42,753 nucleotides of DNA. Source: a virus. The DNA lies in IMG/VR virus record IMGVR_UViG_3300008216_000005, positions 1 through 42,753 of that record, one strand, 5' to 3'. Under the pieces are notes generated by a model that did no database searches, was not told the origin of the DNA, and was given only the letters and a program-made list of their open reading frames with translations. Within the stretch, counting starts at the first letter, position 1. Every line of letters begins with the position of its first letter. Below, piece by piece: positions 17,397-18,859 of this stretch. The position numbers were made by a program, and so were the translations under genes.

Positions 17397-18140
17397 ATGG
17401 GCCGCGCCTTGCTGGTCCTAGACGGACCCATGACCAAGCGAAAGGCCGTTGACTGGATCGGCAGGGCACCGATCGGAACCCGCGTGGAGTTCAAGGCCTC
17501 GAAGCGGACACTCCCGCAGAACGATATGCTCTGGGCTCTCCTGACGGAAGTTTCTCAGCAGCTCGATCACGGCGGACGGAAATACGACCCGGCAGAGTGG
17601 AAGGCGATCTTCCTGCACGCCTTCGGGCGAGAGGTCGCGTTCCTGCCCAGCCTCGACCGCAAGACATTCCTGCCGATTGAGCTTTCATCGTCCGACCTGT
17701 CGAAGGACGAGATGACCGACTTCATCGAGTTCATCATGAAGGAGGCCGGAGAGCGCGGCGTGATCTTCAAAGACCATCGAAATTCCGACGGCGCCCAGAC
17801 CCCAGGCGTCTCGGAGACTGGCGACGGTTCCCCTGCCGAAGCGCCAGAAGAGCCCGGGGATGAATCCCCCTCTTCCCCGGGTTCCATGATCGATTGCGCG
17901 AGGGAGTTCCTGGCGCTGGCGCAGATCGCTTGGTCCGATCCGGAAGAGCGCGATGAAGCATTCAAGCAGTGCGGCATCGACTGGAAAGCAAAGCTTCCGG
18001 AGAGCCGCCATCCCGAAATCAGATCCGTATACGTCACCACCCTCGCTGTCCCGACCGGCGCCCGCAACATCGCGCAGGCCAGGTCCTTCCTCAGCGAGAC
18101 GCTGCAATGCAACCTTGAAGAATTGGAGTGCAAGGCATGA
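17397..18140 (+). CDS. ninB: NinB-like recombination protein with C-terminal extension
   Basis: This protein has 247 residues. The N-terminal 125 residues fit NinB/Orf (KRTLPQNDMLWALL, then EWKAIFLHAFGRE, then SSSDLSKDEMTDFIEFIM). NinB helps load recombination proteins on single-strand DNA. After an acidic, Pro- and Ser-rich linker (about 130-160) there is a second unknown domain of about 85 residues. NinB proteins are usually near 150 residues, so this is a fusion or elongated form. The stop overlaps the next ATG. Confidence 0.8.
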   Translation: MGRALLVLDGPMTKRKAVDWIGRAPIGTRVEFKASKRTLPQNDMLWALLTEVSQQLDHGGRKYDPAEWKAIFLHAFGREVAFLPSLDRKTFLPIELSSSDLSKDEMTDFIEFIMKEAGERGVIFKDHRNSDGAQTPGVSETGDGSPAEAPEEPGDESPSSPGSMIDCAREFLALAQIAWSDPEERDEAFKQCGIDWKAKLPESRHPEIRSVYVTTLAVPTGARNIAQARSFLSETLQCNLEELECKA

Positions 18141-18859
18141 CCCTACCTGTCCTCACCATGACCGGCATTGACGCGAAGACGGACCCGAAATGGATCAAAT
18201 CCATGCTTCGGAAGCACATCCTGACGAACGGCTATAGCGGGCTTGAGTTTGCCATCCTCCGTTCCCCGAAGGTCGATCAGTCGCCACGCTACCCTAACCG
18301 GGACGTGATCAAGCGGCTGACCAGCGAAGCCAAGGCTGGGGACTTCGCCTTCCACCTGTGCGGTCGATACGCCCGGATGGTTCACAGCCTCGAATGGGCC
18401 GAGCTCTGCGACATCATCGATTTCAGCTCTGTCGGACGAGTGCAGGTGAATTCTATTGAGGCTGATGAAAAGGCGATGCTGACGTTGTGGCGGTTCAGCG
18501 TTCACATCGGGAAGCCGGTCGTGATGCAGTGGCGCAGCGACGAGTTCCCATCGGCTCCCGGCATCCACCTCCTGCAAGATCGTAGCGGAGGCCAAGGCAT
18601 CGCGGAAACAAGTTGGTCGACACCTGACGAGATCTGCAGGAAGGCCAAGACGTTCATTGGCTACGCTGGTGGACTTGGGCCTGACAATGTCGGCGCGGCC
18701 CTCCAGTCCATCGTTGCGGCGTCGAAAGGTCGTCGTTTCTGGATTGATTGCGAGAGCAGCCTTCGGACCGACGATTGGTTCGACCAGTCGAAGGCCGAGC
18801 AAATGGCTCAGGCGGTCCACGACGCGCTTCCGAGCATGTTCCAAGAGGTGGCAGCATGA
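18137..18859 (+). CDS. TrpF-like (phosphoribosylanthranilate isomerase fold) protein
   Basis: This 240-residue protein has the order of PRAI TIM-barrel motifs: SPRYPNRDVI near 49, AFHLCGR at 71-77 (where TrpF has QLHG), LLQDRSGGQG at 145-154 (like the LD...GGSG phosphate-binding loop), YAGGLGPDNV at 176-185 and FWIDCESSLRTDD at 201-213. The N-terminal TMTGI stands where TrpF has the catalytic Cys (xCGx), so the general base seems lost. It probably binds a phosphosugar-like or nucleotide ligand without TrpF activity. No trp genes are near. It lies between NinB and HNH genes. Confidence 0.68.
   Translation: MTLPVLTMTGIDAKTDPKWIKSMLRKHILTNGYSGLEFAILRSPKVDQSPRYPNRDVIKRLTSEAKAGDFAFHLCGRYARMVHSLEWAELCDIIDFSSVGRVQVNSIEADEKAMLTLWRFSVHIGKPVVMQWRSDEFPSAPGIHLLQDRSGGQGIAETSWSTPDEICRKAKTFIGYAGGLGPDNVGAALQSIVAASKGRRFWIDCESSLRTDDWFDQSKAEQMAQAVHDALPSMFQEVAA

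Follow-up and report, generated by a model that had tools for sequence, protein, structure and literature searches.

The substrate of phosphoribosylanthranilate isomerase (TrpF), N-(5-phosphoribosyl)anthranilate, is an exocyclic N-riboside. For the nucleoside-catabolism pathway we know of no TrpF-like step. The GTP_CH_N proteins, which open nucleotide rings, include URC1. URC1 and URC4 convert uracil to urea and 3-hydroxypropionate (PMC3869809), and the intermediate of URC1-dependent uracil breakdown is ribosylurea (PMC7530994). Chemically, ribosylurea is an exocyclic N-riboside, as is the compound rearranged by TrpF.

Here we describe a relative of TrpF encoded on a stretch of viral DNA of 42,753 nucleotides, referred to as the window. 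The ORF starts with an ATG at position 18137, and both the ORF and the motifs listed for it in a first-pass annotation are present. The gene, its upstream neighbour and the conserved parts of its product are located as follows.

17397–18140, plus strand: NinB, the upstream neighbour (Pfam E=1.5e-18), incidental as explained below
18137–18859, plus strand: gene for the TrpF-fold protein, 240 amino acids (ORF call, supported by AlphaFold2 and Foldseek)
18137–18140, plus strand: ATGA, in the sequence the start of the TrpF-fold gene overlapping the NinB stop codon TGA
18155–18172, plus strand: end of beta-1, T7-M-T9-G10-I-D12, with T9 at the position of the catalytic Cys of TrpF (profile alignment)
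18281–18289, plus strand: beta-2/alpha-2 loop, S49-P50-R51 (profile alignment, conservation)
18353–18364, plus strand: end of beta-3, H73-L-C75-G76, distinct from the QLHG strand of TrpF (model, profile alignment, conservation)
18437–18451, plus strand: beta-4, R101-V-Q103-V-N105, the equivalent of TrpF QLHG, with N105 at the His position
18527–18529, plus strand: beta-5, Q131 (conservation)
18578–18598, plus strand: beta-6, D148-R-S150-G-G152-Q-G154, with D148 at the position of the catalytic Asp of TrpF
18659–18673, plus strand: beta-7, G175-Y-A177-G178-G179, the phosphate-loop equivalent of TrpF AGGL
18740–18766, plus strand: beta-8, W202-I-D204-C-E206-S-S-L-R210, the equivalent of TrpF VDVSSG plus E206 and R210

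The only Pfam match of the window protein at E≤1 is a weak one to PRAI (PF00697, the TrpF family; E=0.0036), with a score of 17.5 bits below the gathering score of 22.7. NCBIfam matches it with its TrpF model at E=0.13, and a search of PHROGs gave no useful match. Of 75 relatives, 69 also matched PRAI at E≤0.1, any other family being matched by one member each, and one relative from a huge phage exceeds the gathering score (24.8 bits). AlphaFold2, run with an alignment of 75 members, predicted a (beta/alpha)8 barrel (pLDDT 94.7, pTM 0.91) with eight strands at residues 6–9, 36–42, 70–74, 101–104, 128–132, 144–147, 174–177 and 201–205. The two top PDB folds found by Foldseek were Pyrococcus TrpF (4aaj, E=2.6e-7) and the bifunctional TrpC-TrpF (1pii), and profile-profile comparison with five real TrpFs reached a probability of 95% (E ~4e-8 for one comparison). 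The predicted structure is the TIM barrel that had been proposed from the motifs and not another fold, and from profiles and model together it is near certain that the window protein is truly, if distantly, homologous to TrpF.

In the profile alignment TMTG is paired with KICG of TrpF, SPR with SPR, RVQVN with QVHG, AGGL with AGGL and WIDCESS with VDVSSG, while DRSGGQG aligns with the catalytic Asp/GGTG loop. The motif order claimed by the first-pass annotation therefore stands for SPR, DRSGGQG, AGGL and IDCESS. Its equation of FHLCG with QLHG is ruled out by alignment and model alike, since FHLCG belongs to beta-3 and RVQVN (residues 101–105) forms beta-4. The family shares with TrpF the barrel, the strand order, the Asp and Gly-rich loop of beta-6, the AGGL and D-x-x-S loops and, in mobile-type members, the Arg of SPR. 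In contrast to TrpF, the Cys of beta-1 is Thr or Ser, the His of QLHG is Asn, and E37, H73, C75, R101, Q131 and W202 are new invariant residues. Among the phosphate loops of TrpF, beta-7 retains G178-G179, whereas beta-8 reads ES in place of SSG and has gained an Arg. The family further differs by its location outside trp operons and by PRAI scores that are mostly under the Pfam cut-off.

Roughly 25 positions are nearly invariant, first in 95 members and then in 172 (139 mobile-type and other members plus 33 chromosomal ones). In the N-terminal half these comprise T9, G10, D12, E37, H73, C75, R101, Q103 and N105, the latter, within the RxQxN motif, present in 170 of 172; in the C-terminal half they comprise Q131, D148 (172 of 172), S150, G152, G154, G178, G179, W202, D204, E206 and R210. 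The retrieval patterns of the IMG/VR and GTDB scans overlapped parts of beta-1, beta-7 and beta-8, and conservation there is thus partly selected for; none of the patterns covered E37, R51, H73, C75, R101, Q103, N105, Q131 or D148. The reported replacement of the N-terminal catalytic Cys was confirmed, Thr, or Ser or Ala, occupying this position in aligned members. The proposed loss of activity does not follow from it, as the family has a pocket of another form that is itself strictly conserved. Since an invariant Cys (C75) occupies beta-3, the catalytic Cys might have been relocated and not lost, which is only a suggestion.

The strict conservation of this altered pocket makes an enzyme more likely than a sponge. 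A non-catalytic protein that binds a defence signal or another nucleotide would account for the missing catalytic Cys, and at one locus the TrpF-like gene has an Acb2/Tad1-type hairpin gene as its neighbour. However, the barrel mouth carries invariant side chains of acid/base type and the same pocket occurs in chromosomal members of metabolic operons, so that we consider a sponge very improbable. The family likely is an active enzyme. Comparison of the window gene with three phage relatives (71–78% identity) gave a dN/dS of ~0.08–0.16 and therefore indicates purifying selection.

We found the family to be widespread and to have no separate name in either PHROGs or Pfam, in agreement with the earlier view of an unrecognised phage family. 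A profile-based scan detected it in at least 212 IMG/VR contigs (212 related stretches, 80 of which were kept for analysis), and none of 75 members searched matched a PHROG at E≤0.01. The GTDB genome scan added 80 loci from proteobacteria, Bacteroidales and a few Firmicutes. By tblastn we found Microcystis phage Mwe-JY13 at 78% identity, relatives in huge genomes (635 and 735 kb) of uncultured phages and 16 plasmid records, chiefly large proteobacterial plasmids, in which the gene carries either the label hypothetical or no annotation. Carriers thus comprise phages, huge-phage genomes, megaplasmids and some chromosomes. Our literature searches did not turn up any publication on TrpF-like proteins of phages or of nucleoside operons.

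The NinB and HNH nuclease genes named as neighbours of the window gene were both matched by Pfam, and the ATGA overlap with NinB is a possible case of translational coupling. The recombination setting was nevertheless found to be uninformative: phages with an Erf-YqaJ-NinB module (L195–L200) are devoid of the TrpF-like gene, and the nearest relatives of the window gene (L005, L016–L019) lack the NinB of the window. As the two genes occur independently, the NinB neighbourhood is incidental and the gene moves alone. Close to the window end, a tRNA-Asn (gtt) gene is located on the minus strand (419–494).

In phages the neighbours of the TrpF-like gene are mixed. ASCH-like genes are found in 27 loci within the flanks examined and are adjacent in alphaproteobacterial, betaproteobacterial and Bacteroidales loci; a PA0069-like radical SAM gene is found in 14 loci and lies directly upstream without a gap in 11 of them. 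DUF5131 is present in 12 loci and a cytosine methyltransferase in 14; DUF5131 also lies near the TrpF-like gene in both newly found betaproteobacterial loci. These recurrent neighbours would suit a protein that helps phages to modify DNA or RNA, or to evade restriction, together with one of these partners. The figures are raw counts of common phage genes and as such weak evidence, no partner is general, and the window operon and most loci have none of them. We therefore regard a role in modification as unlikely.

A separate observation concerns phages of the Bradyrhizobium type, in which the TrpF-like gene begins just where one of two different radical SAM genes, PA0069-like or DUF5131, ends (phage loci L022, L023, L026, L029–L031, L037, L038 and L090; prophage loci L097–L099 and L101).

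The lead to a function comes from the gene context on chromosomes. One clade of 33 members (tree support 100, one label change) is located in nucleoside-catabolism operons, of which it is a regular member. Its loci contain a nucleoside hydrolase (27), a ribokinase-like PfkB (29), NupC (12), a purine permease (12) and adenosine deaminase (9), as well as TonB receptors and GntR or LacI regulators. Matches to hydrolase, PfkB, NupC and purine permease were confined to loci of the clade and to fragments with the same surroundings, with 0 in phage loci. Because the clade had originally been retrieved by patterns from its wider group, we carried out a pattern-free check on two families. A search of 245 Caulobacteraceae and Oxalobacteraceae genomes gave 8 full-length matches, two of them centre genomes, and all 8 had nucleoside genes at a distance of ≤1.5 kb. 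In the diverged lineage L230 the TrpF-like gene also adjoins PfkB and nucleoside hydrolase genes; with its start unaligned and one stop in frame this lineage counts as supporting only.

All ten nucleoside-operon genomes tested possess a separate true trpF. No trp genes were seen as neighbours, and no relative was seen that combines a complete TrpF active site with adjoining trp genes. The first-pass annotation was right in not assigning the protein to tryptophan synthesis. Homology to TrpF is what a decayed or still active enzyme of the tryptophan pathway would have in its favour; given the separate trpF genes, the family-wide replacement of Cys by Thr and of His by Asn, a dN/dS of ~0.1 and the near-invariant positions in 172 relatives, we consider this reading extremely unlikely.

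Members of the chromosomal clade differ in their pocket: S43, R51, G151 and A177 are replaced, mostly by D, L, F and S. R51 is kept in 139 of 139 sequences of the mobile-type set, whereas 28 of 33 in the clade carry Leu. On account of these differences the clade may use another substrate than the mobile-type members.

A second link to nucleotides is a connection with ring-opening enzymes of the GTP cyclohydrolase type. Two related genomes of alphaproteobacteria (91% identical) encode a protein of 685–686 amino acids that ends in the TrpF-like domain and whose N-terminal part matches GTP_CH_N (E ~1e-33) and weakly GTP cyclohydrolase II. Adjoining the fusion are a LOG-type (lysine-decarboxylase-like) and a deaminase-like protein, each matched only weakly by Pfam. 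A third genome, which is diverged, has its TrpF-like gene as a separate ORF located between genes for GTP cyclohydrolase II (RibA-like) and a GTP_CH_N protein, with a dCMP-type deaminase nearby. These cyclohydrolase-type proteins, whether joined to the TrpF-like domain or encoded at its side, are located as follows.

L226, 5339–7396
L236, 6481–8535
L237, 2439–5517

Together with the deaminase-like genes and, at the fusions, the LOG-like gene, these loci possibly represent an unrecognised nucleotide-catabolism cluster. The family resembles the URC1/URC4 pathway in that an URC1-like protein is fused or adjoining in three alphaproteobacterial genomes and in that its substrate would be an intermediate of the ribosylurea type. 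It differs in that the known second enzyme, URC4 (DUF1688), is unrelated to TrpF and in that phages have no URC1. The window protein shows no DUF1688 homology, PRAI being its sole Pfam match, and URC4 was not found in the fusion genome G927, which is possibly incomplete. In the URC1-linked copies R51 and the larger part of the phage-type pocket are retained. We also considered replacement of FolE (GTP cyclohydrolase I) by a cyclohydrolase II plus the TrpF-like enzyme, which is not general, as FolE is present in both fusion genomes.

Taken with the nucleoside operons, the fusion to a ring-opening enzyme probably indicates a substrate derived from RNA building blocks and not from tryptophan precursors. 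We propose, with a probability of about 0.5, that the proteins form a new family of the TrpF superfamily and are active on N-ribosyl products of nucleosides or nucleotides through TrpF-type C1-C2 chemistry. For the substrate on its own, a ribosyl compound derived from nucleosides or nucleotides, we put the odds at even or a little better. The TrpF substrate is chemically of the same kind as ring-opened nucleotides, for example ribosylurea phosphate or the ring-opened compound that GTP cyclohydrolase II forms. D148 would serve as the retained acid/base, and the reaction might be an Amadori-like isomerisation or a cleavage of the N-ribosyl bond, which is a guess. The substrate of the window protein is probably 5'-phosphorylated or otherwise anionic; the distribution of R51 would fit an anionic substrate in mobile-type and URC1-linked members versus a neutral one in the nucleoside-operon clade.

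The same operons could be read in favour of an isomerase or epimerase whose substrate is the free pentose (ribose or ribose 5-phosphate) that nucleosides give off. Its neighbours include nucleoside hydrolase and a ribokinase-like PfkB, in L225 the PfkB gene lies directly 3' of the TrpF-like gene, and TrpF chemistry is close to aldose-ketose chemistry. Aldose-ketose isomerases for ribose 5-phosphate are, however, already universal, and the fusion to a ring-opening cyclohydrolase speaks for an N-riboside, which makes a free pentose an unlikely substrate.

There are also arguments against an N-ribosyl substrate. Nucleoside hydrolase and ribokinase suffice for ordinary nucleosides, so that a TrpF-like step is unneeded there, and no member in the phage loci adjoins nucleoside-hydrolase or URC1-type genes. 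Phage members could have a divergent role. If the N-ribosyl reading applies to phages, their protein might be an accessory enzyme for nucleotide salvage or clean-up during infection, in line with the earlier guess of metabolite salvage, which the suggested substrate class supports. A bolder and tentative version is that the fold was recruited mainly by phages and plasmids for N-ribosyl products of ring opening or for damaged or modified nucleotides, providing phages with a new salvage or signal-degrading step and some bacteria with an alternative to URC4. The family is an unnamed derivative of the textbook enzyme TrpF whose bacterial relatives point to a concrete substrate class. An N-ribosyl substrate, if confirmed, would add a TrpF-derived reaction to nucleoside metabolism, suggest a missing step beside URC1-type enzymes and reveal a common accessory enzyme of phages.

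In addition we noticed several unusual copies and paralogues. On an Azonexus plasmid (L008, 6001–7605) the TrpF-like domain is followed in the same protein by a C-terminal domain whose E.G.A...G.P motif recalls nucleoside deoxyribosyltransferases, and a similar stand-alone protein is encoded 2.1 kb downstream in L167. Assignment of this domain to the deoxyribosyltransferases was not supported by any family or PDB match, and the model of the stand-alone relative is of low confidence (pLDDT 43). An alphaproteobacterial genome of 0.9 Mb (G688; L223, 5598–8678) contains three near-tandem, diverged TrpF-like copies, and in the one checked C75 is changed to Asn and R210 to Lys. Finally, Caulobacteraceae and Oxalobacteraceae carry a separate TrpF paralogue (KICC..., L193 and L207–L210), which gave the second-best matches of the family profile. 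It resembles the family in its beta-8 motif, IDLCSxVRTxGxLD, which is intermediate, and differs by CC at beta-1 and QIVxH at beta-4, being otherwise closer to TrpF; by its sequence it is apparently an intermediate between TrpF and the family.
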